A stretch of 64,000 nucleotides of DNA from Saccharothrix syringae (GTDB taxonomy: Bacteria; Actinomycetota; Actinomycetes; Mycobacteriales; Pseudonocardiaceae), in assembly GCF_009498035.1 (NCBI RefSeq), contig NZ_CP034550.1:9424001-9488000 (forward strand), in the 5' to 3' direction. Position numbers and translations under genes: made by a program. Numbering within the stretch: the stretch's first letter is position 1; each line of letters starts with the position of its first letter. Of this stretch, positions 47,495-64,000 are shown piece by piece. The notes under the pieces are model-generated. The model saw nothing but the letters and a program-made list of their open reading frames with translations. It made no database searches and was not told the DNA's origin.

Positions 47495-48805
47495 ATGACC
47501 CCCATCACGCGAACACCGCTGGTCCCGCCCCTGGTCCCAGGGCTGTCGGCCCTGTTGGCGGCGCTGCTGGCAGTGCTGGCGACAGCGCTGTCGCCGCCTC
47601 CTGCCGGCGCCGCCGGCAGGCCCCACCGCTTCGCCTGGCCCCTCGCACCACCGCACGAAGTGGTGCGTCCGTTCGAGGCACCGCCGAGCCCGTACGCCGC
47701 CGGGCACCGGGGCGTGGACCTCCGCGCCGGCCCCGGTGCGGAGGTGCTGGCCGCCGCCGACGGGGTGGTGGTGCACGCGGGCCGGGTGGCCGACCGGCCG
47801 GTGGTGTCGCTGGCGCACGCCGGCGGGCTGCGCACCACGTACGAGCCGGTGGAGCCCGCCGTGGGGCGGGGGCGGCTGGTGCGCCGGGGCGAGCGGGTCG
47901 GGAGGCTGCGCGCGGGGCACGAGGGGTGCGCGCCGGAGTCCTGCCTGCACTGGGGCGCGCTCCGGGTCGGCCCGCCTCGGGCACACGCCTACCTGGACCC
48001 CCTGCACCTGCTCGCGACGGGCCCGGGCCGAGTCCGCCTGCTACCGGTCGACTCCCCGACCCACCGGTCGGCTCCCCCGCCACCGGTCGTCTCTCCTGGC
48101 CACCGGCCGACTTCCCCGGCCACCGGTCGACTCCCCTGGCCACCGGCCGACTCCCCCGACCACCGGTCGACTCCCCTGGCCACCGGCCGACTCCCCCGAC
48201 CACCGGTCGACTCCCCTGGCCACCGGCCGACTCCCCCGACCACCGGCCGACTCCCCTGGCCACCGGCCGACTCCCCCGACCACCGGCCGACTCCCCTGGC
48301 CACCGGCCGACTCCCCCGACCACCGGCCGACTCCCCTGGCCACCGGCCGACTCCCCCGACCACCGATCCCCCGGCCAGCAATCGACTCCCCAGGCCCGGC
48401 GGCTCTTTCAGGCAGTCCTCCCAGCCGACCTCGGCCGCCTTCCTCCGTCGCTTCCTCCACCGCTTCCGCCGACCAGCCCCGCCGACAACCCCACCGCCGG
48501 CTCACCAACCAGCCTCGGAGGCGCGAACCGGAGCTGCCCTGCTAACTCTCCAACTGCTCGTTGAGCTTGGTGCGGAGCCGGAGGACCGCGCGGGTGTGGA
48601 GTTGGCAGACGCGGGACTCGGTCACGCCCAGGACCTTGCCGATCTCGGCCAGGGTCAGGTTCTCGAAGTAGTAAAGGGTGACCACGACGCGGTCGCGTTC
48701 GGCGAGTTGGGCGATGGCGTCGGCCAGTTGGCGGCGGCTGTCCTGGTCGACGAGCGTGGCGATCGGGTCCTCGGCGCCCTCGTCGGGCAGGGACTCGGCC
48801 AGTGA
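47495..48805 (+). CDS. secreted M23-family peptidase with repeat-encoded C-terminal tail
   Basis: ATG 47495 starts a signal-peptide-like region ([23 protein letters not shown]). The M23 domain spans about residues 45-175: zinc ligands in [10 protein letters not shown], a turn-rich beta core, and CLHWGALRV, where the second His of the usual HxH is replaced. It is likely a peptidoglycan-binding or hydrolysing exported protein, matching Rv2891 by position. After residue 185 the coding passes through a 20-base tandem repeat giving Pro/Arg/Asp-rich sequence. In this frame it stops only at 48805, inside antisense whiG; the other two frames stop at 48545 and 48564. The true 3' end is uncertain. Confidence 0.7.
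48061..48374 (+). repeat. 20-base minisatellite, about 16 units
   Basis: Units CCACCGGYCGACTCCCCTGG and CCACCGGCCGACTCCCCCGA alternate from 48061 to 48359, with a degenerate leading copy at 48041 and a broken one at 48360. The first unit is 19 bases, the rest 20. Because 20 is not a multiple of three, gain or loss of a unit changes the reading frame of the M23 tail. Confidence 0.95.
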
Positions 48806-50645: not shown

Positions 50646-51110
50646 TCAAGTATCGCCACGCCAACTCGCCTCCTGGGAGCGCTTCCAACCTGTTTCCGCG
50701 CGCTGGGCCAGACCGGCCAGTTCGAGTTCCGGCAGCAGAGCGCGCACCCGCGTGAGCTCGACACCCGACTCGACCGAGATCGCCTCCGGGCTGCACCCCG
50801 ACGACAGGCCCAACGCTTCGAAGACCCGCATCGCGTCGCCCTGCGGCGCACCGACGTCGGTGTTGCGCGTCGCCTCGACCAGGTCGACGCCGAGCCGCCC
50901 GGTGGATTCGAGGATCTCGGCGACGTTGGTGACCGGCAGGGCCTCGCCGGACCGCAGCAGCTCGTGGCAGCCCAGCGAGCTGACCGAGGTGACCGGCCCC
51001 GGCACCGCCATGAGCACCCGCCCGAGCGCCGAGGTGGACGCGGCCGTGTTCTTGGCCCCGCTGCGCCGCCCCGCCTCGACCACCACCGTGCCCTCGGCCA
51101 GCGCGGCGTT
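50646..51110 (-). pseudogene. dprA: dprA, 3' fragment truncated by insertion
   Basis: The fragment reads NAALAEGTVVVEAGRRSGAK NTAA ... GRVLMAVPGPVTS ... GCHELLR and continues through the C-terminal winged helix to its stop at 50646. This is the DprA/Smf Rossmann-fold core after the RNR-x-x-AAL motif plus the DML1-like domain. Homology ends abruptly at 51110; everything upstream, including the start and the ssDNA-binding N-terminal half, is missing and replaced by the recombinase island. DprA loads RecA on incoming DNA, so natural transformation or recombination of imported DNA may be affected. Confidence 0.88.
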
Positions 51111-51236
51111 CTCTGAGGGTCGTCACCCTGTGGTGTGACGTTGCATTGAGTTTCCGAGGTGTCGGCACCACAGCGGTTCTGTGGGGGTGTAGCTCTGTGG
51201 CTCCTTGTTGCTGATCGAGAAGGAGTAGAGGCAAGG

Positions 51237-52391
51237 GTGCGAGCGTTTCGAGTGCGGATGCCGTCAGGTAGCCGGTACTGGACGGTGATCGACGACGAGT
51301 TGCACGTCATGTCGGTGGCCGATCGGTTCCTGCGGGAGCTGCGGTTCGGGCGGGACCGGGCCGAGTCGACCAGCGAGGCGTACGCCCGTGGAGTCGCGTT
51401 GTTCCTGTGCTGGTGTGTGCGGACCGGTCGGGACTGGACGACGGCGGCGGCCGAGATGGGCCTGTTCATGACCTGGCTGAAGTACACCCCGACAGGCGAC
51501 GGTCAAGTGGTTATCGGTCCCGGTGCGGCACCGGTACGTGGTGAAGCTCGAATCAATGCGGTGCTGGTGGCCGTGCGGGCGTTTCTGTCGTTCGCCGTGG
51601 TCAACGGACAAGCCCCGCAGTGGGTTCTCGGGGCGATCTACGAACTGGCGGACACCCGTGATCTGCCGCTGGAAACCCAGAGCGAGGACGGTGGGCTGTT
51701 CTACCGACTGCGCGCCCGGCACAGTTTGAAAGAGCCAGAGACCGCGATGGACCGGGCCAGCGATGAGGAGATCGTTGCGCTGTTCATGGCATGTCGTTCG
51801 GCACGGGACCGATTGATCGTGTTGCTGCTGTCACGTGTGGGTCTGCGCAGGAGCCAGACCGTAGGGCTACGTCGCAGCGACCTTCATCTGTTGCCCGATA
51901 ACCGGTCGCTGGGCTGCGACGTGGAGGGAGCCCATCTTCATGTGACTCGGCGAGAGAATGCCAACGGAGCGTGGTCGAAGTCGCGGCGCTCGTACTCGGT
52001 ACCGGCGGATTTCCTTGTGGTGCAGGCCATCGACCAGTATCTGCTTGAGCGCCATCAGTGCCCGGAGGCTTCCAACAGCGACTTCCTGCTGGTGAACTTG
52101 TTCCGGCCACCGCTGGGCGAGCCGATGCCCCCTGGCGCGGTAAATGAGCTGTTCAAGGCACTGTGCGCCCGTGCCGGTCTGGCCAGGTCCGTCACGCCGC
52201 ACATGTGCCGTCACACCTTCGGCAGCAACCTCGCCGACTCTGGCGCGCTGCTGGATGAAATTCAACATCTGATGGGCCACGCCAGCCCCACCTCGTCGCA
52301 GCCTTACCTGCATCCTTCGGTGTCGCGACTGCGCCAGGCCGTCGACCGGGTACCCACTCCCCGCGTGCTAGCTGAGGGAGTTTCTCGGTGA
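51237..52391 (+). CDS. tyrosine recombinase, TnpA-like
   Basis: A 384-residue tyrosine recombinase from GTG 51237 (AAGGAG upstream); the frame is open from 51159 but the extra residues look non-coding. N-terminal core-binding domain (VADRFLRELRFGRDRAESTS), catalytic Arg in LSRVGLRRSQTVGL, H-x-x-R in PHMCRHTFGSNLAD, His in LMGHASPTSSQ and Tyr in PYLHPS. Counterpart of TnpA of Tn554. The next gene starts in a GTGA overlap. Confidence 0.88.
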   Translation: MRAFRVRMPSGSRYWTVIDDELHVMSVADRFLRELRFGRDRAESTSEAYARGVALFLCWCVRTGRDWTTAAAEMGLFMTWLKYTPTGDGQVVIGPGAAPVRGEARINAVLVAVRAFLSFAVVNGQAPQWVLGAIYELADTRDLPLETQSEDGGLFYRLRARHSLKEPETAMDRASDEEIVALFMACRSARDRLIVLLLSRVGLRRSQTVGLRRSDLHLLPDNRSLGCDVEGAHLHVTRRENANGAWSKSRRSYSVPADFLVVQAIDQYLLERHQCPEASNSDFLLVNLFRPPLGEPMPPGAVNELFKALCARAGLARSVTPHMCRHTFGSNLADSGALLDEIQHLMGHASPTSSQPYLHPSVSRLRQAVDRVPTPRVLAEGVSR

Positions 52392-54871
52392 TCAGCAGCA
52401 TCACAGCACACCTTGTCGACCCCCGCACCGAGAGCGCCGAGGGTGCGGAAATCTGGGCCGCGATCGAGCCGGAAAGCCTGAAGATCCTGGGCTGGGACCA
52501 TCAGCGCAGGGTGCTGGTCTTCCCTGTCGGACACCCGTTGCTGGGATGGAGGGCGTGCAGGGTGACCGGGTGCCACAACGATGGCCGATCCGCGTTGCAG
52601 TTGTGCCCCTCGTGCGGACGCCGTTGGCAGGCCGTTGTGGGTACGGACTTCGACACATTCCTGGCGACGCCCAAGCCTGTGATGCGGTGCATCGGGGTGG
52701 CACCGTGCGCAGTGGAAGGATGTAAACGCCCGGCGAAGACCACACGGACGCGCCTGTGCGTTACCCACGAGTACCAGAAGGCTTTTCGGCTGAAGCTGCC
52801 GCTGGAGCAATTTCTCACACACCCCGAGGTGGTTCCCCTCTCCGCGTTCGGACCCTGCGAAGTCGCGGCCTGCACCCGTGACCGCACGGGCAAAGGTCCG
52901 TACTGCCAGCAGCACGCCCAGCGCCATAAACTGCTCAAGAGAGAACCGGCTTTCGACGTCGACCACTGGCGGCGGACGGCCTCGGCCGTCTCCGAGGGCA
53001 GCGAGGTCAGTCTGCGCGGCCTGCCGGATCGGGTTGCGGCCGAAGTGATCTACGGCATCCAGCATCGGACCAAGCACGATGTCAAGACCAAGTACCTCAT
53101 GGTCCGTCCAGCGTGTGACTATCTCCGAGAGGCGGAGGTGTCGACGGTGGAGGATCTTCCGCTTGACACGCTGCCCCGGACCGTCCGGGTGTTCCTGACG
53201 TCCGTCGTGAAGGCCCTGCGACGCCGGAGGTCGACGCCGGAAAGCGAGCGCCACAACGACGTATGGGATCTGTACGCCTTTGGCCAGTCCGGGAATCTCA
53301 CGTTCACCGGGATCACACAGCAGTGGCTCCGAGAGGCAGTCAAACGGTGGGCTTTCAATGATCTTCCGAGGCGGCGCGGCAGCAACGTCAGCAACGTCGT
53401 GCAGCAGAAGATCAACTCGGTAGTCCGGCTGTCGGAGAGTCTGCGGCTTCAGCGAGAAGACCACGGTGGAGATCTCGCCGCGCTGAGCCGCCACGACATC
53501 ACGGCATTCCTCAACCGCCTGGCCTACCTGCAAGACCAGGGCGAGATCAGCGGCTACACGCGCCTCGCGTTGTGTCGCTCGGCTCGGCAGGTGCTGGGCG
53601 GGATACATGGTCTGGGCCTGACCGACGCAGGCAACCTCCTGCACGGGCTTCCCAGCAGTTTCATGATCAGTCTCGACGACCTGCCCGACGAGCCAGAGGA
53701 CAGCGAGGCGGGGAAGGACCTGCCCGCGGAAGTGATGCAGCACCTGTGCTCCCACCTCGACGGGCTGGAGGAAATGACCAGTGCTGACCTGCGGTTCTCT
53801 GTCGAACTACTGATCGACACCGGCAGGCGCCCAGATGAGATTGCCAAACTCTGGCTGGACTGCTTGGAGCGCGATCAGGACGGCAAGCCCGTCCTGATCT
53901 ATGACAACCACAAGACCAACCGGAAGGGGCGGCGACTGCCGATCCCCGAGGCCACCGCTGCGGTCATCGTCGCCCAGCAAGAACGCGTCCGGGCACGTTA
54001 CCCAGACACCCCGGCGAGCCAGCTCAGACTGTTCCCGAGCACATCCCGGAACCCGGCGGGGAACAGGCCGGTCAGCGATGACTGGATCACTGACCGGCAC
54101 CGCCGCTGGGTTACCAGCCTGCCTGACATCCACGTGCCCACGATGGTGCAAGAGGGCGGCACGCAGGTGACCAAGATGCTGCCGTTCGATAAGGCAAAGA
54201 TCTTTCCCTACGCCTACCGCCACAGCTACGCCCAGCGGCACGCCGACGCCGGGGTGGATGTTACGGTCCTGAAGGGCCTGATGGATCACCGCCAGATCAC
54301 CACTACAGAACGTTACTACCGGGTCGGCGAGCATCGACGTCGAGAAGCGGTTGAACGGGTCGTGGTGATGCAGTTCGACCGACACGGCAACCGAGTCTGG
54401 CGGCAGGCCAAGGCGCTGCTGGACTCCGAGCACCTCCGACGCGCGGTCGGTGAGGTCGCCGTTCCCTACGGCGGCTGCTCCGAGCCGTCCAACGTCGCGG
54501 CTGGAGGACAGGACTGCCCGCTGCGGTTCCGCTGTGTCGGATGCGGGCACTTCAGCACCGACATCTCCTACCTGCCCGACCTTGAGCACTATCTCGCCGA
54601 TCTGTTGCGGCACAGGGAGCGTCTTGCGGCGGCACTGGACGCCGACGAGTGGGCGAAGACCGAAGCCGTGCCCTCCGACGAGGAGATCAGGCGCATCCGC
54701 CGACTGGTCGACCGGATGAAGGGCGACCTGAACGACTTGTCGGAGGAGGAGCGCGCTCAAATCGAGGAAGCCATCGCGATCGTCCGCCGAGGGCGAGGCA
54801 AGATCGTCGGCTTGGGCCTTCCTCGTGTCCGCCAGCCCCTACCCGACCTGCGACCGGAGCGCACCGCATGA
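52388..54871 (+). CDS. large tyrosine recombinase with zinc-cluster domains, TnpB-like
   Basis: An 827-residue protein. The first 200 residues hold three Cys/His clusters (CRVTGCHN ... CPSCG; CAVEGCKRPA ... CVTHE; CEVAACTRDRTGKGPYCQQH), likely zinc-binding DNA contacts. The recombinase core lies at about 430-670: Arg in IDTGRRPDEIAKL, Lys in HKTNRKGRRLP, AYRHSYAQRH in place of the usual HxxRH, then LMDHRQITTTERYYRV with His and Tyr. A further cluster CPLRFRCVGCGHF and a coiled C-terminus follow. Larger than TnpB of Tn554 but with the same position and logic. Confidence 0.88.
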   Translation: MISSITAHLVDPRTESAEGAEIWAAIEPESLKILGWDHQRRVLVFPVGHPLLGWRACRVTGCHNDGRSALQLCPSCGRRWQAVVGTDFDTFLATPKPVMRCIGVAPCAVEGCKRPAKTTRTRLCVTHEYQKAFRLKLPLEQFLTHPEVVPLSAFGPCEVAACTRDRTGKGPYCQQHAQRHKLLKREPAFDVDHWRRTASAVSEGSEVSLRGLPDRVAAEVIYGIQHRTKHDVKTKYLMVRPACDYLREAEVSTVEDLPLDTLPRTVRVFLTSVVKALRRRRSTPESERHNDVWDLYAFGQSGNLTFTGITQQWLREAVKRWAFNDLPRRRGSNVSNVVQQKINSVVRLSESLRLQREDHGGDLAALSRHDITAFLNRLAYLQDQGEISGYTRLALCRSARQVLGGIHGLGLTDAGNLLHGLPSSFMISLDDLPDEPEDSEAGKDLPAEVMQHLCSHLDGLEEMTSADLRFSVELLIDTGRRPDEIAKLWLDCLERDQDGKPVLIYDNHKTNRKGRRLPIPEATAAVIVAQQERVRARYPDTPASQLRLFPSTSRNPAGNRPVSDDWITDRHRRWVTSLPDIHVPTMVQEGGTQVTKMLPFDKAKIFPYAYRHSYAQRHADAGVDVTVLKGLMDHRQITTTERYYRVGEHRRREAVERVVVMQFDRHGNRVWRQAKALLDSEHLRRAVGEVAVPYGGCSEPSNVAAGGQDCPLRFRCVGCGHFSTDISYLPDLEHYLADLLRHRERLAAALDADEWAKTEAVPSDEEIRRIRRLVDRMKGDLNDLSEEERAQIEEAIAIVRRGRGKIVGLGLPRVRQPLPDLRPERTA

Positions 54872-55395
54872 CCACCGACAATTCGATGATCGAAGGACGG
54901 CGGGCGGATTCGGCCCGCCGTCGCCAGCGGGTCATCAAGGCCATCAACGCTGCCAGCACCAGCGGCGGGGAACTGAGCGTGTCGGCGATCGCTCGCGCCG
55001 CGGCCGTCGACCGCACGTTCATCTATCGACACCCCGACCTGCTCGGTCAAGTCCGCACCGCCCAAAGCAACCCTGCGGCGGCCGACGGCACCGGCCCCGT
55101 GGTGAGCCGAGCCTCCCTGCAAGCAGACCTCGCCAACGCGCACGGCCAGATCAATCGGCAAGCCGCCCGCATACGACAGTTGGAGAACAAGCTGTCGGAG
55201 ATGCTGGGCGAGCACGCCTGGCGCGAGTCCGGCCTCGGCGCGCCCGCCGACATCGATCAGCTCCAGCGCCGGATCACCGGGCTGGAGCAAGAAGTCGTCA
55301 TGCTCAAGGGCCGCCTGGAGGAACAAGGCCAAGACTTGGATGCCGCACGAGCTGCCAACCGCGAGCTGATGAGCCGCCTGAACCGGAACGGCTGA
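54868..55395 (+). CDS. small coiled-coil TnpC-like protein (DUF6262 type)
   Basis: A 175-residue protein overlapping the previous stop by ATGA. The N-terminal half looks like an HTH (ELSVSAIARAAAVDRTFIYR) and the C-terminal half is a long heptad-rich coiled coil (NAHGQINRQAARIRQLENKL; LEQEVVMLKGRLEEQGQDLD). Tn554 TnpC is a small accessory protein that helps choose orientation of integration. DUF6262 proteins commonly follow two tyrosine recombinases in actinomycetes (recalled). Confidence 0.8.
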   Translation: MTTDNSMIEGRRADSARRRQRVIKAINAASTSGGELSVSAIARAAAVDRTFIYRHPDLLGQVRTAQSNPAAADGTGPVVSRASLQADLANAHGQINRQAARIRQLENKLSEMLGEHAWRESGLGAPADIDQLQRRITGLEQEVVMLKGRLEEQGQDLDAARAANRELMSRLNRNG

Positions 55396-55469
55396 CGCCA
55401 AACGCGACTGCCATGCAGGCGATCGGGATCTTGAAGTTGGGCGGTTTTACCTGATCAGGACATGAGTGA

Positions 55470-55538
55470 GCCCCTGGGGCAGGGCGCCCCAGGGGCCACT
55501 TGCTAGTCTTGATCAGTCGTCTGCGGCACAGACGACTG
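55470..55538. other. paired stem-loops after the transposition genes
   Basis: Hairpin 1: GCCCCTGGGGC (55470-55480) with GCCCCAGGGGC (55486-55496), loop AGGGC. Hairpin 2: CAGTCGTCTG (55514-55523) with CAGACGACTG (55529-55538), loop CGGCA. The first can terminate the recombinase operon; the second is of unknown use. Confidence 0.6.
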
Positions 55539-55716
55539 GCATCAAACCAGCTATGTCTATCAACCCAAGAGAAGACTAGCCGGCGTTTACACGGCTCGTC
55601 AACTCGGTGGCCACGGATCACATCACCCTGTGGCTGCCGGGTGCGACCGGCGGTTCGAGGGACCCTCCCTTGGGCTTTGGTGCCATGAGCTGCCGAGAAG
55701 CGAGCAGTGAAAACCC

Positions 55717-55851
55717 GTGCAGGGCAAGGAGTTCTGTTCAGCGTGCCACGACAACACCTCCAGCAGACCTGAAGGCGACGTGTGGGTCTGCGCCGAATGC
55801 GGTCGACACCGGGCCAGGCGGCACCGTCGTATCCGGCGCACCCCTCGGTGA
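55717..55851 (+). CDS. candidate 44-residue zinc-ribbon protein
   Basis: From GTG 55717: two CxxC knuckles (FCSACHD and WVCAECGRH) 18 residues apart, followed by an Arg/His-rich tail. The spacing is that of a zinc ribbon. The ribosome site is weak and the ORF is short, but a strong hairpin follows directly. Could be a DNA-binding or adaptor miniprotein of the element. Confidence 0.4.
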   Translation: MQGKEFCSACHDNTSSRPEGDVWVCAECGRHRARRHRRIRRTPR

Positions 55852-55858
55852 TCGGAAT

Positions 55859-55895
55859 GATGGGTTCCGCAGCGCATTGCGCTGCGGAACCCATC
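55859..55895. terminator. bidirectional terminator
   Basis: A perfect 17-bp stem, GATGGGTTCCGCAGCGC with GCGCTGCGGAACCCATC, and a three-base loop. It separates the zinc-ribbon ORF from the convergent gene ending at 55961. Confidence 0.85.
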
Positions 55896-55960
55896 AAGTC
55901 CACAACCTGGCCCGACCCTTTCGACAGCGGCAGTCGGCGCCGGTGGACGGGTGGGCCGAC

Positions 55961-56479
55961 CTAGCCGTCCAGCCCGAGCCCAGGGATCTCTTCCTCGGTG
56001 GGCGGCCACCCAGGTACCGGCAACCGTCGGCTGAGTGCCGCGATCACCCAGTCGTTGTCGCGGAGCTTCACGATGAACGAGTGGCCCGCCATAGGCGGAC
56101 CGCCAGCTTCGACGTACCCGACGTGCTGCGACTCGACGAGAACCACGAGTTCCATGTCGACTCCGACCAGGGTCGGTGCACCGAAGACTCCGAAGTCGCC
56201 AGCGAGCATGTCGTACACACGACGCCAGTGAGCGATGTACCAGTCCAGCATGGACTCGGCGTCGGAGCTGTCGGGGTTCGCCTCGGCCAGGGTGGCGGCG
56301 CGGCGGTCGTCTACTCGCCCGGCCGTATTGAGTACCCATGCTTGTGCAAGTGCCAGACGAAGTGGTCCGTCGAGAACAGCCCACAGGTGCCAGCCGGGTT
56401 CATCACCGTGGAGTTCGGCCGCCCAGTCCAGCACTGTGGCGAGACCGCCCGGCAATGACGACGGGTCGATATCTGCCAT
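55961..56479 (-). CDS. hypothetical protein, 172 residues
   Basis: Not recognised. It starts at ATG 56479 with AAGGAG nine bases upstream and an AT-rich promoter stretch. Acidic overall, with no signal peptide or membrane helix. Helical first half (LPGGLATVLDWAAELHG; MLDWYIAHWRRVYDMLAG) and beta-rich second half (MELVVLVESQHVGYVEAGG; HSFIVKLRDNDWVIAALS) give an NTF2-like or immunity-protein-like impression only. Flanked by terminators, so it is transcribed alone. Confidence 0.7.
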   Translation of the reverse strand: MADIDPSSLPGGLATVLDWAAELHGDEPGWHLWAVLDGPLRLALAQAWVLNTAGRVDDRRAATLAEANPDSSDAESMLDWYIAHWRRVYDMLAGDFGVFGAPTLVGVDMELVVLVESQHVGYVEAGGPPMAGHSFIVKLRDNDWVIAALSRRLPVPGWPPTEEEIPGLGLDG

Positions 56480-56640
56480 GGGGCTTCGCTCCTTTTATTG
56501 AAAATGCAATTCGACGACACGAGAGAGTCCCGCCTCGCAAGGTCGCATGTACGCCTGGTTACTGCGCATAAGACTCAAATGGGCAGGTTGAATCTAGATA
56601 ACCTGTAAGCGGTCCTGTTGCGAAATCGATCATTGGCAGA

Positions 56641-57762
56641 TCACTGCCTATTGATGCTGCGAACAGAAGCCACCGGCGACTTTCGTGGACCGTCGACCTT
56701 GTCGGAGGGGGTTGGTGCAATGGACCGGAGTACAGTTGGGTGAATTGCCAGGGTGTCCGCTGCGGGACGATATGGGCGTGCACCAAAACGACGACTGAGC
56801 AACGTCCACAGCAGTAGAGGCGCCTCCTGGCCTACTGTGACCGGTTCTTTTTTGCGCCACCCTTTGGCTGAGAGTTGAACGAACAGTGAGCGTCGACGCG
56901 TCTCCCCGATCGTTTCAAGCGCAAAGCCGCGCATGATCAACGCCTGTATTGAAACACCCCATGTAGCTTTAAGGCGCGCGTAGTCACTGAGCGAGTTCTT
57001 CTCTGTGATGCTTTCCAACACTCGTTGCCGTGGTACCAGCAGCGCGCCTGCAAAGCGGTTGGCCTCGCCCTCCGGGTCCGCCGCGCGAGGACGGAACGTG
57101 TGCAGCACGAGGTGGCCGACTTCGTGGGCGAGCGTGAACCGCTCTCGGTCGCCTTGACTTCCCGGGAAACAGCCGATCAGAGCTGGCGCGCCGAGCCCAC
57201 CCCAATAGGAGACACCGAAGTGTCCACCAGTGGCTGGCGGGTCGTCGGGGTCATCGGTGAGGACAATGGGAGCCACGCCGACCCCGGCTCTCTCCAGCGC
57301 CCTGGTCAGGTGAGGAATCGGTTTATCCGGTGCCAGCCGCAGGGTCTCACGGGTCTGCTCGGCAAGTTCTTCGATGTCCTCTTGAGAGAGAGTATCGCTA
57401 GTTGCGTACGGCAGTGGGGGTGTGGGGTACCCGGCATCGCCGAGCAGGTCTTCGGTTACCCGGAAACCTTCGCCGTAAAAAGCGTGCACGCGTCGAGTGA
57501 CTACCTTGCTCGCCGAAGAACTCTTGCGGAAGCGCAGTGAATCCAGCGGTACCGTGGAGGGCTGCACGTGGAAAAAGCGTTGCGGCGTGTCCGTGGCCTT
57601 GGAGATGGCCTCAAGTGCGGCTTCGGTTGGTTCACGTGAGCCGGTTTCCACCTCCGAAATCCACGACTGCTGCACGCCCGACACTTCGGCGAGCTGCTTT
57701 TGGGTGAAGCCGAGCAGATCCCTCAGGGTCCGCAGACGTTCACCCGGTGAAGCCGCCAGCAT
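56641..57762 (-). CDS. XRE-type HTH fused to ImmA/IrrE metallopeptidase
   Basis: A 373-residue protein. The XRE helix-turn-helix is at residues 7-62 (LRDLLGFTQKQLAEVSGVQQ). The ImmA/IrrE (COG2856) peptidase has H213-E-V-G-H217 in FTLAHEVGHLVLH and a third-ligand Glu in EGEANRFAGALLVP. In ICEBs1 ImmA cleaves the ImmR repressor, and IrrE/PprI cleaves DdrO (established). Here sensor, repressor and protease are one chain. The start is ATG 57762, inside the last 23 bases of the upstream gene, so the two are translationally coupled. The C-terminal 90 residues match nothing I know. Confidence 0.88.
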   Translation of the reverse strand: MLAASPGERLRTLRDLLGFTQKQLAEVSGVQQSWISEVETGSREPTEAALEAISKATDTPQRFFHVQPSTVPLDSLRFRKSSSASKVVTRRVHAFYGEGFRVTEDLLGDAGYPTPPLPYATSDTLSQEDIEELAEQTRETLRLAPDKPIPHLTRALERAGVGVAPIVLTDDPDDPPATGGHFGVSYWGGLGAPALIGCFPGSQGDRERFTLAHEVGHLVLHTFRPRAADPEGEANRFAGALLVPRQRVLESITEKNSLSDYARLKATWGVSIQALIMRGFALETIGETRRRSLFVQLSAKGWRKKEPVTVGQEAPLLLWTLLSRRFGARPYRPAADTLAIHPTVLRSIAPTPSDKVDGPRKSPVASVRSINRQ

Positions 57763-58369
57763 CGGTGTCGCCTTCCTCGTCGCGGGGCAGTGCGAGCCCC
57801 AGATCGTCATCCGTAGGTTCGAAAGCCAGGTCGGCCAACTCCGCCGCGGTCGGAGGCAGAGGGAAGTCCAAGTCGGTCTCCGCGTGCGAACCCAACTTCC
57901 ACTCGCCGATCGGCCTGACGACACGGAACCCGGCTGCCGCCGTGGAAGGGTCGATGCGCCACAGGACGAGCAACTTGTCGCGTGCCTCGCCGAACAGGGG
58001 GATCATGCCGTCCAGACGCGGCTGCCGGTAGTAGGCGCGACGCGCCTTGTTGCTGCCCGGCGGTGGGACGTCGCTGTCGTTGAGCGCGTGCAGGATGCGG
58101 ATGCGGTACGACCCGTCGGTCATCCACAAGGCGCCGTTCTGCGCGTGGTTCCCCGACAGAGTCCAATCGCCCAGCTCGCCGTCCATCGTGGACAGGATGT
58201 GGTGGGCGTAGGCGCGGATGGTGTGGGTCGCGTGCCAGCGGTAGCTCCCGCCCCCTAGTTCGGGCAGGCGTTCCCGTCGAAGCTGCTCGGCGGAAGCGAA
58301 CACGTCGTGCAGCGGCTCGCACAGGTCCAGCAGAGCGGTACGGACACGCTCGACGTGGTCGTTAACCAT
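57740..58369 (-). CDS. unknown partner of the XRE-ImmA/IrrE protein
   Basis: A 209-residue protein from ATG 58369, first gene of the two-gene unit. N-terminal helices (VRTALLDLCEPLHDVFASAE QL), a central Trp/His/Tyr-rich part (YRWHATHTIRAYAHHIL; NGALWMTDGSYRIRILHAL; RRAYYRQPRLDGMIPLFGEA) and an acidic tail (AELADLAFEPTDDDLGLALP). No catalytic motif recognised. A TGATAATATC dyad at about 58376-58389, just before the start, may be the XRE operator. The layout is that of a toxin-antitoxin or repressor/effector pair, with this protein the candidate effector. Confidence 0.75.
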   Translation of the reverse strand: MVNDHVERVRTALLDLCEPLHDVFASAEQLRRERLPELGGGSYRWHATHTIRAYAHHILSTMDGELGDWTLSGNHAQNGALWMTDGSYRIRILHALNDSDVPPPGSNKARRAYYRQPRLDGMIPLFGEARDKLLVLWRIDPSTAAAGFRVVRPIGEWKLGSHAETDLDFPLPPTAAELADLAFEPTDDDLGLALPRDEEGDTDAGGFTG

Positions 58370-58460
58370 GGCAGCGATATTATCACGAGCAAAGTTAAGG
58401 ACGCGAGGGGATCATGGTGCCTCTGCGCGAGGGAGCTTGCGCAGAGGCACCCGAAGCACC

Positions 58461-59012
58461 TCAGCGTTCACGGCCGAGGAGGATGTGGGGGTAGCCGCGG
58501 TTGACGCGGTCGCCCAGCTCGATGCCAAGGCCGGCGATGAACTTGTCGAGCCGGGCGTGAGCTTCCTCGATCGTCTCGGCCTCGCCCTTGAACTCGAACT
58601 CGACGAAGTCGCCTGCGTCGGCAACGCGGTCGAGCGCGATCTCGACCTCGTCCAGGCGCCAGGTGGTGCGGGTCTTGTCGACGGTCACCATAGGTTGGAA
58701 CCCCAGGGCCTCGAACGCGTGGCGCAGCGCCTCGATGTCACAGACCGTGGTCTCGTACTCCGTGGCGTGGGCGGTGCCTTCTCCGGGCTTGTGCCACTGC
58801 TTGTAGTTGAACGAGGAGCCGCGCTGCTCGATGCGGAAACGTACCCACTCGGTGATCGTGTCCGTGGCAAGGAAGTCCTTGGCCGGGTGGTTGTAGTAGG
58901 CGTCGATCTGCCGGGACGGTTCGCTGGCGCTGGCGCCCAGTTCGGCGAGGCGGGCGGTGAGGGCGTCGGCGTCGGGCAAGGCGTACTTCTGCTCGACCTC
59001 GGTGTACCGCAC
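58461..59012 (-). CDS. CYTH-domain protein (class IV adenylate cyclase/ThTPase-like)
   Basis: A 183-residue triphosphate-tunnel protein. Begins with the ExExK motif (EVEQKYAL) and continues with basic and acidic strands of the tunnel: WVRFRIEQRGSSFNYKQWH, TVDKTRTTWRLDEVEIALD and DFVEFEFKGEAET. CYTH enzymes act on ATP, thiamine triphosphate or inorganic triphosphate. The start is GTG 59012, overlapping the stop of the aldo/keto reductase remnant (TAGTG). Confidence 0.88.
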   Translation of the reverse strand: MRYTEVEQKYALPDADALTARLAELGASASEPSRQIDAYYNHPAKDFLATDTITEWVRFRIEQRGSSFNYKQWHKPGEGTAHATEYETTVCDIEALRHAFEALGFQPMVTVDKTRTTWRLDEVEIALDRVADAGDFVEFEFKGEAETIEEAHARLDKFIAGLGIELGDRVNRGYPHILLGRER

Positions 59013-59912
59013 TAGTGGTGTCCTTCCTGGGTGTGGGGGTGCAGTGCCGCGCGGATCTGGGCGACCTCGTCGTCGGTGAGTGGGTCGCCGAGGCACGTGA
59101 CGTCGGTGTGGATCTGTTCAGGGTCTCGGAACCCGACGAGCACGATCGAGTCGAGGGCGTGGTGCAGTGCGTAGCGCAGCGCCACGCGGACCAGCTCAGC
59201 GGTGCTGGTGTCGTAGAGGGCGTGCAGCGGCGCGAGTCTGTTGACCAGCCGGCGTAGCGCTTCGGGGGCGAAGCGGGGGTCGTTGTGGCGGTGGTCGGTA
59301 TCGCTGAAGTGGCGTGGGGCGCGGTGGTCGTGAGCGCTGATGAGCAATCCTTGGCCGAGTGCCTGCTTGATCAGCACGCCGACCCTATGGCGGCGGGCGA
59401 AGGCGAAGATGTCGGTCTCGTCGGGGCCGTAGAGCGGGCTGAGCAGGTTGTAGCGGGCGGTGAGGACGTCGGGGCGGATGGTGTGGAACAGCCGCAGGAA
59501 CCGGCCGGTGTCGGCGGCTTCGGGCCGGTTCTGGTCGGTCCACTGTTCGGCGAAGGTGTGCGGGGCGCGCATCCCGACCGCGTGGATCAGGCCCTGCTCG
59601 CGCCACTTGCCCATCAGCTCGACCACGCCGGTCAGGTAGTGGTCGTGTTCGCCGAAGTCAGTGCTGTGCAGGAAGTAGACGTCGAGGTGGTCGGTGCCGA
59701 GGTTGTCCAGGGTGGTGGCGAGCTGGTGGCGCATCTGCCGCGGGTGGTACGGGTGGGGGGCGGTGCCGGCGAAGTAACCGACCTTGCTGGAGAGCACCAG
59801 CTCGGCGCGGTCCACGTCGCGCAGCAGGCGTCCGAGCAGGCGTTCGGAGCGGCCCAGGCCGTAGACGTCGGCGGTGTCGAACAGGGTGATGCCCAGTTCG
59901 TGGGCGTGGAAG
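59012..59912 (-). pseudogene. aldo/keto reductase missing its N-terminus
   Basis: Homology begins abruptly at HAHELGITLFDTADVYGLGR near 59912 and runs to the stop at 59012. Catalytic Asp/Tyr (FDTADVYG), Lys (SSKVGYF) and His (YFLHSTD) remain, but the first beta strand and helix of the barrel and the original start are gone. A GTG at 59815 could make a shorter product that lacks Asp and Tyr. Upstream codons in frame are antisense to the TPR remnant, so the two genes share one break. Confidence 0.8.
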
Positions 59913-59916
59913 ACCC

Positions 59917-60638
59917 TCGCCGGCTGGACCGCCCACGACCTCGGCCTAACCGCCGAAGCCCGCCGCTACCTCACCCAGGCCGTCGCCGACACCCAGGCCG
60001 CCGACAATCCCGCCCACTCCGCGATCGTGCTCTACCACCTCGGGCGCGTCCCCCTCGACCGCGGTGACGGGCAGGAAGCGCTCAAGGTCTTCCAGCTCGG
60101 CCAGATCGCCGCCCAGGACGCCCACTCCCCGGCCGCCGTCGCCTTGCTGCATACCCACGAAGCCCTCGCCTACGCCCAGATCGGCGACGCCCGCCGGGCC
60201 GTCACCTCCCTGCGCCGCGCCGAGGACGAGTACGCCCACGCCGATGACGGCGACGACTGGCCCGAGTTCCTGAAGTTCTTCGACCTCAGCGCCTTGCAGA
60301 CCAGCGCCGCCCGAGTGCACAACCAGCTCGGCCTCACCAACGCCAAGCATCGCGACGAAGCCACGGTACGCCTCAGCGCCGCACTCGACGAGGTGCCCGC
60401 CGACCGCGTCCGGCAACGCGCCTTCAACCTCGCTTGGCTGGCGACCTGCAACCTCGCCGACGGGAACCTGGCTGGCGGCGCCGAGATCGGCAGCCAGGCC
60501 CTCGACGCCGTCCGGGAGGTCAAGTCCGTCCGACTGCTCGACGCCCTCGAACCCCTCCAGACTGAGGCCGAACGCCACCAGCGCCACAGCGACGTTCGTC
60601 AACTCGCCCACGACATCCGCCAACTCCGCGCCGCGTAA
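59917..60638 (+). pseudogene. TPR-domain regulator fragment missing its N-terminus
   Basis: From LAGWTAHDLGLTAEARRYL the protein shows five or so TPR-like helical pairs (AIVLYHLGRVPLDRGDGQEA LK; ALAYAQIGDARRAVTSL; NLAWLATCNLADGNLAGG) to a stop at 60638. This matches the C-terminal half of actinobacterial XRE-TPR regulators; the HTH is missing. The frame is open back to 59874, but those codons are antisense to the aldo/keto reductase. Confidence 0.75.
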
Positions 60639-60985
60639 ACTCCATAGCTGCAAGCCCCTGAGCTGCGGATACTCAAGATCAGGGGGTGCTCGCGTGATAT
60701 GATCACGTCTGCAAATAGATCTCGCCCGACCGAGTTACCTCTCACGCTTGACAACAACCGCGAATCGATCCATTCGCACTGGTAGGCGAGGGGCGAGGAG
60801 GTCGATTCCGCTTCCTCGTTACCTGGTTTTGACAGGTGCGGATGCTCGGATCAGGGACTACGTTGACGTGGCCGATGCCGCATCGTTCACCCGAAAGGGT
60901 GTGCATCGGCCCCAAAGACGCCAAAGGCCGGAGAGGATGCTCAGCAGGGGCGCAATCCCTGCTGACTCTCCGGCCTTGGCAGGGA
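60639..60985. other. 347-base non-coding region with stable inverted repeats
   Basis: No convincing protein. It contains a 15-base operator-like palindrome CGTGAT-ATG-ATCACG (60693-60707). A GAAA-tetraloop hairpin follows (60870-60911: outer GGCCGATGC/GCATCGGCC, inner CACCC-GAAA-GGGTG), then the terminator-like hairpin 60924-60977. Confidence 0.6.
60924..60977 (-). terminator. compound hairpin, probable terminator of the small membrane-protein gene
   Basis: The outer 12-bp stem AAGGCCGGAGAG (60924-60935) pairs with CTCTCCGGCCTT (60966-60977). The inner nine-bp stem TCAGCAGGG (60941-60949) pairs with CCCTGCTGA (60957-60965). It lies nine bases beyond the stop at 60986. Confidence 0.65.
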
Positions 60986-61210
60986 TCACCTCCTGCGCGC
61001 CCGATCTGCGGCGAGGATGAGCCCGACCCCGAGGAGCCCGGTGGTCATCGTCACTGCCGGGCTCCAACGGGCAACACCAGCGACGACGATCGTCACGGCT
61101 TCACACGCGGAGCCCGTGCACAGCAACACCCACGGGTCCCAGGACCGGCGCCACCACGGTGACCCCTCGTCCTCCGGCTTCTTTCTGTTCTCTTTCCTCT
61201 TCTCGTCCAA
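60986..61210 (-). CDS. small membrane protein, 74 residues
   Basis: TTG start at 61210 with AGGAG ten bases upstream. A Lys/Glu-rich cytoplasmic head (MDEKRKENRKKPEDEGSPWW) is followed by two hydrophobic helices (DPWVLLCTGSACEAVTIVVA; PAVTMTTGLLGVGLILAAD) and an Arg-rich end. No family recognised. Two-helix miniproteins of this form occur as toxins or regulators, but nothing here proves that. A strong hairpin follows the stop. Confidence 0.5.
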   Translation of the reverse strand: MDEKRKENRKKPEDEGSPWWRRSWDPWVLLCTGSACEAVTIVVAGVARWSPAVTMTTGLLGVGLILAADRARRR

Positions 61211-61499
61211 TCAGGCGGTGCTCCTGACCTGCCCGGAGGTGTACGCATGTCGCGCACCTTTGTGGCCTCCGGCACGAGCGTGGCCAGCCACGGCTGGCGG
61301 GGTCAGGAACCCGATCGGAGGAGATCAACCGGACTTCGTGGCGCCACCCTAGCGCCATCATCACGACGACGAACCCACGTGATTCCATGCCGCATGGGTG
61401 TGTGCAGGTCACGTGCAACTGGGCCAGGAAAAAATCACTGACCTGGGACGTTCGCCCCCATGGCCACGGATCAGCGTCACTGCCTATGACTCGGGACGG
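61211..61499. other. 289-base region without a supported gene
   Basis: A possible ORF at 61247-61441 has a good ribosome site but poor coding character. Otherwise nothing is evident apart from the promoter side of the small membrane-protein gene and the 3' end of the AbiV-like gene. Confidence 0.4.
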
Positions 61500-62384
61500 C
61501 TAACCCTGGTCCTCCGTATCCGTCTCGGCCTGCCCCTCTTCTGCGGGAAGCATGCCGAGTTGGTCGGCAAGCTGAAGCAGTTCGCGGGTCTCGGCCTCGT
61601 AACCGGGCTTGCCAAGGTTGGCGAACGGATCGCTTCCTGCACCGGGCAGGTGAAGCCGGTACCCGTCGTTGTTCCACTTGGTCCCGGCACGGCCGCGGCG
61701 CATCCCGTCCAACACCTGTTCGGAGAAGTCGGACGAGTCGCCGAGGGACGAGTTGCCGAGCGCGGCGCGCATCTGCTCGATGCTTTCCTCGGATGCCGGC
61801 GGCACGTCACGGGCCATCTCCGCTTGCTGCTTGGCCTCGATGTGCTCACCCAGTCGGATCTGCCACCCGATCTGGTGAACGTGGCTGATCACCTCGCGCA
61901 GCGACGCCTCGTCCGACGCATCCGCCGGGGTGAGCACGCCGTCCTGCTCGGTGACGTCGACGTAGAAACCGCGCTGCTTGAGCACGTTGTGTCGACATGT
62001 CCAGTCCTCGATGTCGCCCAGCCAGTCGCTGTTCGCCTCCGGGTCTGAGGGCTCCGTGCCGAACCAGTACTGCTCCTGCACGAGGAAGTCGTGGACCAAC
62101 TTGAGCTTGGCCTGGTGGTCGGCCCACAGCTTCCTCAACGCCGTGTTGACGAAGGGCTCGCCTTCGGGTGCGTAGGCGATCTCGACGCGTCGCCGGTGGA
62201 TGGCGATGGCCTTGCCGGACTCCTCCATGCCGAGGATGGCCAGGGACCGCGCCAAGCCGACGTGGCCTAGGTCCAAGACTGCGACCGCCGACATGAGCAG
62301 TCGGTCCGCGTTCGCCAGCAGCTCGTCTTGCAGTCGCACCACCTGGGCGGGTGTCAACGGCGGCAGCGTGTTCTTCCCGGGCAT
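61500..62384 (-). CDS. AbiV-family abortive infection protein (HEPN-like)
   Basis: A 294-residue protein from ATG 62384. The N-terminal third has the AbiV signature: ANADRLLMSAVAVLDLG followed by ARSLAILGMEESGKAIAIHR, with the conserved EE-x-x-K at residues 54-58. Lactococcal AbiV stops phage by blocking late protein synthesis, and the family belongs to the HEPN superfamily (recalled). The C-terminal half (acidic, Trp/Tyr-rich) is specific to this protein. Divergent from the DUF6932-like operon across 224 bases; alone on its strand. Confidence 0.82.
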   Translation of the reverse strand: MPGKNTLPPLTPAQVVRLQDELLANADRLLMSAVAVLDLGHVGLARSLAILGMEESGKAIAIHRRRVEIAYAPEGEPFVNTALRKLWADHQAKLKLVHDFLVQEQYWFGTEPSDPEANSDWLGDIEDWTCRHNVLKQRGFYVDVTEQDGVLTPADASDEASLREVISHVHQIGWQIRLGEHIEAKQQAEMARDVPPASEESIEQMRAALGNSSLGDSSDFSEQVLDGMRRGRAGTKWNNDGYRLHLPGAGSDPFANLGKPGYEAETRELLQLADQLGMLPAEEGQAETDTEDQG

Positions 62385-62571
62385 GGCCACAGTGTGTACG
62401 ACAGCACTGACCATCTCGCCCGCGCCGATGAGGCATCAGTGGGGTTCTGCATGCAGTCCTGGTGGATCTTGCCGAGGTGGCTGCCAGGAGTTGTAGCCCA
62501 GCCTAGAGGAGTCGGAGTCGTTACCATTACGCGATCTGACCATGCTGTGACCAGGCGTAACAGGCACCCCC

Positions 62572-62589
62572 TTGATCTCGATGGATCAA
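62572..62589. promoter_or_regulatory. palindromic operator candidate before the DUF6932-like operon
   Basis: TTGATC-TCGATG-GATCAA is a perfect six-base dyad ending nine bases before the ribosome site GAAGGAG. It lies in the AbiV/DUF6932 divergent region and could serve autoregulation. No regulator gene is adjacent, so one of the flanking proteins may bind it. Confidence 0.4.
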
Positions 62590-62608
62590 CAGGACGTGAA
62601 GGAGTGGC

Positions 62609-63196
62609 GTGTCGATCCATCCCTTTCTGGACGATCAAGAGCACCTCCCACCGGGAAGGTTCCGTCTCTCGTGGGAAGAGGCGGAGGAGCTGCTGGTCGA
62701 CGACCCTCTGTTTGCCGGCTCGCAGACTCGACCCGAGTTGTGGCGTGGTCTCACCAGGTACATCGCCCGGTTCTTCGAGCTGCAAGAGCAGTACGAGAGC
62801 CTGCTGGACGGTCGGCAGCTCGCTCACTTCATCTGGATCGGCGGCAGCTTCGCCAGCAAGAAGCTGGACCCGCGACAGCTCGACCTGTCGATCGCCATCG
62901 ATGTCCTGGCACGACGGGCACTAGCCGGGCAGCCTGGTGTCCGTTGGTTCAATCAGGCGACCAGCCGAACATACTGCGTAGACAACTACGGAGTGTCACC
63001 CATTGAGATCCCGTTTGTCGTAGTTCCTAGCCCGTTCAGGTCGGACAAGCTTGGCCTGGACGAACAGAGCTACCTGCGGGAACGCGGTGCGTGGGATGAT
63101 TGGTGGCAACGTATCCGGACGCCAGGTGTGGTGGACTGCCCTCCGTCGGAGGAGACTGCGGGAACGGCACGGGGCTACCTGGAGGTGACGCTATGA
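62609..63196 (+). CDS. DUF6932-like nucleotidyltransferase-fold protein
   Basis: A 195-residue protein from GTG 62609, four bases after GAAGGAG. The opening LPPGRFRLSWEEAEELLVDD and the core IWIGGSFASKKLDPRQLDLS (residues 75-94) match the DUF6932 pattern. That family is a nucleotidyltransferase-like fold in which a GS motif is followed by DxD. Here the second acid is Ser (Asp92-Leu-Ser94), so activity may be altered. The 3' end overlaps the next gene by ATGA, indicating coupling. Confidence 0.75.
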   Translation: MSIHPFLDDQEHLPPGRFRLSWEEAEELLVDDPLFAGSQTRPELWRGLTRYIARFFELQEQYESLLDGRQLAHFIWIGGSFASKKLDPRQLDLSIAIDVLARRALAGQPGVRWFNQATSRTYCVDNYGVSPIEIPFVVVPSPFRSDKLGLDEQSYLRERGAWDDWWQRIRTPGVVDCPPSEETAGTARGYLEVTL

Positions 63197-64000
63197 CGAG
63201 AGCATGGCGCCAGCGCCTCTCAGTGGAAGACCGTACAGAACTCGACCAGTGGTGGACGACAGTGTCGGCGGGTACACCTCCCGCTGAGCTTGAGCTTGAG
63301 GAAGTCGCACGTCGCAACGCGCTCGAAGCGCGACGCGTCTACGACGAGTCGGCAACGCTCGACGAGGAACTGCACGTGCGCCTGCAAGGCCCCCTTGAGG
63401 AGGGAGAGCTTCCCTTCGAGCTGGGCCAGGAGCTGTTCAAGCCGCTCCGCGACAGTGTGAACGCGGCCACCAGCGCTCACGTCGATCTCGCACTGGCAGG
63501 TGTGATGGCCGGAAGCACGATCCTCCGGATCAAGGCCACGACTCCGCTGCCGGAGGACTCTCAAGCCCCACTGATCGCTCCTGACGCAGTGTCACCCTCC
63601 GACCAGGCAGTCCGCGCTCTGCTCGACGTCCTTGCAGAGGCCGAGGCCGAGGGCGACCCGAGAGCCTGGCCTGCCGCTCTCCGGTCGAAGCTGCCCAAAC
63701 TCGCCGATGTGCTCTACGAGCACAACCTGACTGCCGAGTTCACCTGGCTCGCCAGCAGCGGGGCGATACGGCGCACTCAACTGTCCTCGCGTGGGCAAGC
63801 GTTCGTCAGGCAGCTCCGCGAGTACACGGAACAGAAGCGGACGATCGAACTGGTCGGCACGGTCACGGGACTTCGCCAAGCGGGCTGGATCGTCGTCAGC
63901 CCTGAACGCGGTCCCGACGTGAACGTCAAGATCGCGCCGAAGACCTTGGCGGCCCTGCGGCTGACGCTGTGGCAGCAAGTTCACCTTGAAGTCGAGGTCA
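63193..64000 (+). CDS. unknown partner of the DUF6932-like protein, 3' end outside window
   Basis: Starts at ATG 63193 with GGAGGTG just upstream, and remains open for 269 codons to the window end. It begins MTRAWRQRLSVEDRTELDQW W and is acidic and helical (ELELEEVARRNALEARRVYD; LLDVLAEAEAEGDPRAWPAA). A later segment reads FTWLASSGAIRRTQLSSRGQ AFVRQ, then beta-like GWIVVSPERGPDVNVKIAPK. No known domain recognised. Coupling suggests that it works with the nucleotidyltransferase-like protein. Confidence 0.75.
   Translation, partial: MTRAWRQRLSVEDRTELDQWWTTVSAGTPPAELELEEVARRNALEARRVYDESATLDEELHVRLQGPLEEGELPFELGQELFKPLRDSVNAATSAHVDLALAGVMAGSTILRIKATTPLPEDSQAPLIAPDAVSPSDQAVRALLDVLAEAEAEGDPRAWPAALRSKLPKLADVLYEHNLTAEFTWLASSGAIRRTQLSSRGQAFVRQLREYTEQKRTIELVGTVTGLRQAGWIVVSPERGPDVNVKIAPKTLAALRLTLWQQVHLEVEV

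Follow-up and report, generated by a model that had tools for sequence, protein, structure and literature searches.

What has split dprA in Saccharothrix syringae, and does the recombinase trio at the break have a site of its own there? The genome (G000) is a single contig of 10.93 Mb. We analysed a stretch of 64,000 nucleotides from it (9424001-9488000; base 1 of the stretch is 9424001), called the window here. A preliminary description of this DNA had proposed that a Tn554-type trio interrupts dprA, possibly at a dedicated site. The interruption is seen directly as a split gene with its halves about 23 kb apart, the 5' half lying beyond the window edge. The end of dprA had been put at 51110; the break does lie inside the gene, but the frame runs to 51108 and the element begins at 51109. 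The features at the break are as follows (window coordinates).

50646..51108, reverse strand: dprA 3' half with the winged-helix end, from ALAEG onward; PF02481 and PF17782 matches
51103..51108, no strand: attL core GCGGCG, 6 bp, the target's own, overlapping the end of the dprA half; sense CGCCGC in 3 of 12 empty sites of the genus (footprint test)
51109..64000, forward strand: in-window part of element A, which continues to genome position 9494359
51109..51127, forward strand: left terminus of element A, TTCTCTGAGGGTCGTCACC, matching the inverted right terminus (genome 9494341-9494359) at 16 of 19 positions
51159..52391, forward strand: tnpA1, tyrosine recombinase, 410 aa (likely start GTG at 51237, ~384 aa); Phage_integrase, E 1.4e-23
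52388..54871, forward strand: tnpB1, long tyrosine recombinase, 827 aa; Phage_integrase, E 3e-10
54868..55395, forward strand: tnpC1, small DUF6262 protein, 175 aa; DUF6262, E 3.9e-8, start read from the sequence

A PF02481 search of the whole genome returned three pieces: the 3' half (9474940-9475122), the 5' half (9498104-9498556) and an extra dprA fragment at 9489778-9489972 in the opposite orientation to the two main halves. Since PF02481 gave only these pieces genome-wide, no intact dprA was found that would turn the window fragment into a duplication. The right junction and the second half, which had been placed beyond the window, were both located. The open frame of the 5' half enters a second element, B, and then stops (260-aa ORF). 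At the DNA level, the 3' half is 82–86% identical to the 12 best dprA rows of the same genus. In all 24 other genomes drawn from the genus, dprA gave full matches with E-values no higher than 1.1e-61, and 12 empty sites read RHRF-L-TRNRLIA-ALAEG, or near to it, in the sense direction. The stretch RHRFL-TRNRLIA-ALAEG is the most conserved DNA of dprA, and both insertions in S. syringae lie inside it.

A dprA match was absent in 6 of the 297 genomes of the family. Five low scorers by best E-value were inspected, and only S. syringae and perhaps G241 seem to be split by an insert; in G037 the two dprA parts are adjacent, which we read as a frameshift or a sequencing error. The dprA of G241 is broken at contig ends (L067, L068) at SGA^YGID, which is also the start point of the foreign dprA fragment in element A described below. 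Past this break, the sequence does not resemble an A-type end. A separate observation from the ORF list is a run of short repeated peptide units (P..SPGHRP-like) at window 47990-48440, between a sigma gene and the rpsB side.

The insert between the dprA halves consists of two elements, not one. Element A (9475109-9494359, ~19.25 kb) comprises the trio and its cargo, inserted at RNRLIA^AL. Element B (~9494386-9498099, ~3.7 kb) encodes tyrosine recombinases of 430 aa and 785 aa, and no tnpC was found in it. The outer junctions lack the 18–20 bp for TRNRLI, and this missing dprA core lies between A and B at 9494365-9494385; B is followed by its 6-bp right core (9498100-9498105) and then by the 5' half. 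We rejected a single 23-kb element because the missing core is found within the insert, with a set of ends on either side. A longer target duplication was discarded too, the overlap being 6 bp only. The two recombinase pairs are distant: TnpA1 and TnpA2 share 23% identity (E 6e-9), and TnpB1 and TnpB2 give no BLASTP match at 1e-3. Element B and the foreign dprA fragment inside A had been missed at first because they lie beyond the window. The donor-derived right 6 bp of B (AGAGAA/TTCTCT) equal the terminal hexamer of many A-family elements; B's donor copy may have adjoined an A end, or the likeness may be due to chance.

The trio itself was confirmed; it consists of two Phage_integrase proteins and a DUF6262 protein encoded on the same strand, with a 4-nt overlap at each gene boundary. 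In an alignment of seven sequences, the invariant residues of TnpA1 are R211/R212, H329, R332, H355 and Y364, in the pattern R, H-x-x-R, H, Y. Neither Pfam nor NCBIfam gives an integrase match for TnpC1, and the only signs of a possible coiled coil in it are short, weak matches to two Pfam families (TolA_bind_tri, DUF1192). On a Rhodococcus plasmid, a TnpA 67% identical to TnpA1 stands in the same order of integrase, integrase and DUF6262, and TnpB1 is 55% identical to a 'possible transposase' of a Rhodococcus jostii RHA1 plasmid. Relatives of TnpA1 at E <= 1e-40 occur in 16 of the 297 family genomes, S. syringae included. The right terminus of A, inverted, reads TTCTGTGGGGGTCGTCGCC, and the left ends of A-family relatives are similar to A's left terminus. 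Elsewhere in the genome there are two TnpB-like matches of equal length (6285236-6286768 and 3173335-3174867), 28% identical to tnpB1.

Downstream of the trio, the window holds the following cargo genes.

56641..57924, reverse strand: HTH and IrrE/ImmA protein, PADLOC RmrA, E 2.3e-180
57740..58369, reverse strand: PADLOC RmrT, E 7.3e-86
58461..59815, reverse strand: CYTH-domain protein and aldo/keto reductase
59874..60638, forward strand: TPR gene
61500..62414, reverse strand: AbiV-type HEPN protein, E 1.4e-29
62609..63196, forward strand: DUF6932 protein, weak PADLOC match PDC-M63A

Together, RmrA and RmrT form a PADLOC pair (56641-58369) within the cargo of element A. At the 3' end of the TPR gene, 176 bp recur as a direct repeat (85%) at genome 9493730-9493905, near A's right end. 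Further inside A lies the extra dprA fragment, 194 bp, inverted and 85% identical to the host's own dprA. Past its B-type position follows a B-family gene, tnpA3, 46% identical to tnpA2. The C-terminal tyrosine segment of tnpA3 fails to align and the gene may be decayed; the interior of A yielded nothing resembling tnpB2. tnpA3 is followed by another copy of the core and, at ~9491912, by another A-type right end. With a B-family gene, a second core and a second A end beside it, the foreign dprA also bore both kinds of insertion. We infer that it was gained by recombination between related elements. A tnpC remnant within A and the 176-bp repeat mark further joins. Element A is thus a mosaic, and its present unit of movement is uncertain because of the inverted dprA piece, tnpA3 without a tnpB, the tnpC remnant and the second right end inside it.

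How the elements joined dprA can be approached through the six bases at their ends. For 21 A-family elements with both ends (identical flanks counted once, S. syringae included; related elements are among them, two from one genome), the left and right outer 6-mers match at 4.10 of 6 positions versus 2.72 after shuffling, and 0 of 2000 shuffles came as high. The excess appears in the exact register alone; the eight other registers of the nine tried show none. Within dprA, the left core is empty-site sequence: of the 12 genus sites, 3 have the CGCCGC of S. syringae, 8 have CGCGGC and 1 has AGCGGC. The right core can differ, being CGCGGA in S. syringae (0 of 12 genus sites), GCCGCC in S. violaceus and CCTCGC in Streptomyces sp. 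WAC 01529. Element A thus has a 6-bp core with the target's bases at one end and the donor's at the other, a rule reported for SEs and ascribed also to Tn554-related elements in the accessible part of the source (PMC10214605). A second S. orinoci copy (L150) sits in a TOTE primase/helicase gene; it has dprA's 6 bp at its right end and was therefore probably copied from dprA.

We consider it highly likely that two transposons of the Tn554 type, both equipped with tyrosine recombinases of their own, split dprA at two att sites 13 bp apart, as judged from elements, ends of A, junctions, recurrence and A-family core overlap that can all be read in the sequences. Element A would recombine across a 6-bp core, in sense CAT[CGCCGC]GCTG. 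Element B, whose centre lies 13 bp upstream of the A core, would use the 6-bp centre of a near-palindrome, CCGGTTCC-N6-GSAACCGG; this exact core is presumptive, being placed from just two pairs of junctions. At the tnpA-side end the target would keep its own 6 bp, and the 6 bp at the other end would come from the donor site, presumably by a copy-out/copy-in route as in SEs and Tn554. A-type insertions would then be expected at dprA LIA^A or at ATCGCCGC. Because neither junction restores the reading frame, dprA would be lost. We infer the order of insertion, the joining by these recombinases and the loss of DprA function.

The suggestion that the same trio might be found at dprA in other genomes held. 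Scanning GTDB species genomes with a TnpA alignment yielded 134 relatives, of which 80 were kept, and dprA lies at the junction in 7 of the 80 loci, from four other genomes and all at the identical nucleotide: Amycolatopsis sp. CA-128772, S. orinoci (4429-bp element), S. violaceus (6277 bp) and Streptomyces sp. WAC 01529 (4879 bp). In Amycolatopsis sp. CA-128772, both dprA genes are hit by the same 6842-bp element, the halves being presumably paired across draft contigs. The 3' half in S. violaceus lies partly in a masked stretch, and the break is less well seen there. ComM, XerC or a sigma gene stands beside dprA in one copy of each of the four genomes, which marks the chromosomal dprA locus. 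No dprA flank was seen in the 19 other A-family loci of the bacterial family, the upstream flanks of L074, L076, L082, L083 and L089 being left out. Some ends of A-family elements, and the left flank of L193, were placed with a simple TTCTC criterion and may be misplaced.

The B family also reaches dprA elsewhere. Relatives of TnpA2 at E <= 1e-50 occur in 20 of 397 genomes of the order, S. syringae included. None of the 29 B-family loci of the bacterial family, S. syringae's own excluded, has a dprA flank. A tblastn search over the 29 B loci fetched in the order scan found dprA in two, the foreign fragment of S. syringae (L234) and a locus of G500 (L219); the halves flanking S. syringae's own B lie outside its locus (L211) and are hence absent from this count. 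The dprA of G500 is split by a B-family element whose TnpA is 65% identical to tnpA3 and whose TnpB is 46% identical to tnpB2. This insertion is oriented the opposite way and sits ~10–15 bp upstream of the B site, so it is not at the identical nucleotide. No other dprA match was found in G500. An intact dprA was likewise not found in any of the four genomes with an A-family hit, nor thus in any of the six genomes with a dprA insert.

Besides dprA, A-family elements interrupt genes for ligase, Ku, DnaE-like proteins, integrases and transposases. We looked for ends in 73 of the 80 loci, and 58 had a left end with >150 bp of flank. Once four duplicates and five frames that were short or masked had been removed and six right-flank frames added, the set comprised 55 ORFs, chosen by a GC3 rule. 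Their Pfam matches, in raw counts from the first 25 of 36 families, include rve (7), DprA (6), Phage_integrase (6), ATP-dependent DNA ligase (4) and Ku (3), with single matches to TniQ, ResIII/helicase, DDE_5, DDE_3 and ISL3 and further ones to Dak1, PCMT, an epimerase-like family and DUF6233. The six DprA ORFs are presumably those of L134-L137, L149 and L167, from three genomes. In another set, 30 ORFs picked by hand from 28 loci and biased by that choice, 23 loci matched (three matches below the curated cut-off), 18 to recombination, repair or mobility genes and 5 not; its frames for L144, L157 and L161 were chosen by hand and differ from the GC3-ranked ones. These raw counts suggest, rather than demonstrate, an enrichment of recombination and repair genes among the targets. 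Among individual loci, four Mycobacterium contigs (L194, L195, L196, L198) carry 4492-bp A-family elements that share their flanks and lie in a tyrosine recombinase motif, TG^MR. In L144 (12374-13144), the right end lies in a NADAR/SLOG-like gene (SLOG match below cut-off) at ARNEVMI^, which resembles the RNRLIA of DprA by eye.

Such a list raises the idea that the choice of target is adaptive, in that breaking dprA or repair genes hinders deletion of the element by homologous recombination and is selected for; the underlying notion of conflict is set out in the accessible part of PMC4774983. The flank counts, the convergence of two families on one gene and the six genomes without an intact dprA are consistent with it. 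However, transposase and integrase genes are hit equally often, so harmless conserved targets explain the pattern too, and since dprA is single-copy the lack of an intact copy is expected. We regard adaptive targeting as possible but unlikely. A broader version is, in our judgement, doubtful: the actinobacterial Tn554-type class would seek out signature motifs in genes of genome integrity and DNA exchange, and two distantly related families would have converged on one 40-bp dprA stretch as breaking dprA shields the element from removal by recombination. The genes concerned would be, just as doubtfully, dprA, Ku, ATP-dependent ligase, DnaE-like polymerase, TOTE primase-helicase, integrases and transposases.

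It is very unlikely that dprA is the dedicated site proposed at first, held by one trio lineage with an inherited fixed target as Tn554 has its single site. The identical dprA nucleotide in five genomes, with two dprA genes hit in one of them, would fit a specialist. However, only 7 of 80 loci are in dprA, none of 19 in the family, and no single dprA clade emerged. In a tree of TnpA alone (62 rows, some labelled by eye, namely several with integrase or transposase targets and L161, called Ku without a Pfam family match), the five dprA rows are scattered and need five changes, five being forced by starred branches. The dprA cases cluster no better than shuffled labels do (mean 4.9 changes), whereas five ligase-inserted rows need one change. 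On this tree we rejected a dedicated dprA clade; dprA would have been reached several times, or would be recognised by many A-family members. Near TnpA relatives of the dprA cases sit at tRNA-like sequence, transposase, polymerase and other genes, and the S. orinoci TnpAs in dprA and in the TOTE primase/helicase gene are identical. An insertion that arose by chance at an unconstrained site and was afterwards copied along with the genome would fit the rarity of split dprA genes in the family, but is refuted by recurrence at the same base in five genomes across families, by the conserved ends and by the core overlap.

In the reading we prefer, two transposons at neighbouring att sites, dprA is a precise and recurrent target, not a private one. 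The finding is larger than first noted: a Tn554-type element at a recurrent, exact dprA site, beside an element of a second family. It shows two recombinase families converging on dprA as a landing site, and the idea of mobile elements disarming recombination becomes testable in laboratory Streptomyces.

Tn554 targets radC and carries drug resistance. Element A resembles it in inserting into a recombination-linked gene and differs in its target, dprA, and in its defence-like cargo. With Tn554 and its Firmicutes relatives it shares the tnpA-tnpB-tnpC plan, and with relatives of Tn554 the imperfect terminal inverted repeats and the 6-bp footprint, as far as the accessible text goes (PMC10214605). 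Among the matches listed, Firmicutes plasmid rows are only 22–26% identical to TnpA over 85–91%. An Exiguobacterium plasmid record, from a compared set without Tn554 itself, reaches 23.8% over 91% (E 1e-12); a DUF6262 gene lies 1.9 kb downstream there, with none listed between in an incomplete gene table. Tn554 has a unique site according to the part of PMC3414803 available, whereas the A family does not keep to a single fixed site. Element A works like Tn554 and, because of the many target genes among its actinobacterial relatives, is placed only in the wider Tn554-related class.

The actinobacterial Tn554-related class was defined by Van Houdt et al. 2012 (PMC3414803). As described in its accessible part, members pair a short recombinase of ~350 aa with a long one of 611–828 aa and have a TnpC-like partner, as A does, or, in a second group, none, as in B. 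Judged by that class description, the sizes of A (410/827/175 aa) and B (430/785 aa) fit. The class account, in the text available, comes without target genes, ends or a 6-bp rule (PMC3414803), and the ends, the 6-bp core rule and the list of target genes are what the present analysis adds for these transposons. SEs, in the portion of PMC10214605 available, share the 6-bp fingerprint/footprint rule and one ordinary plus one large recombinase, and their fourth small protein, Srap, is compared with TnpC. They differ in an extra core gene, tfp, and are reported from Gammaproteobacteria (PMC10214605). In SEs tfp lies between intA and intB; in element A, no gene separates tnpA from tnpB, which overlap by 4 nt. 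RITs have three tyrosine recombinases, and the third protein of A has no integrase match.

In the open literature searched, mostly abstract openings, we found no description of dprA as a Tn554-type target; one paper mentions Tn554 and dprA, without relation. Insertions of MGEs in the competence genes comK, comYC, comFA and comM have been described (Croucher et al. 2016, PMC4774983), where dprA appears, in the accessible text, only in the reference list and not as an insertion target. Many of those MGEs, as far as that text shows, are prophages, unlike A and B. Like A and B, they bring divergent recombinases into one DNA-uptake or homologous-recombination gene, and comFA, according to the same text, is hit at two distinct sites, like dprA here (PMC4774983).
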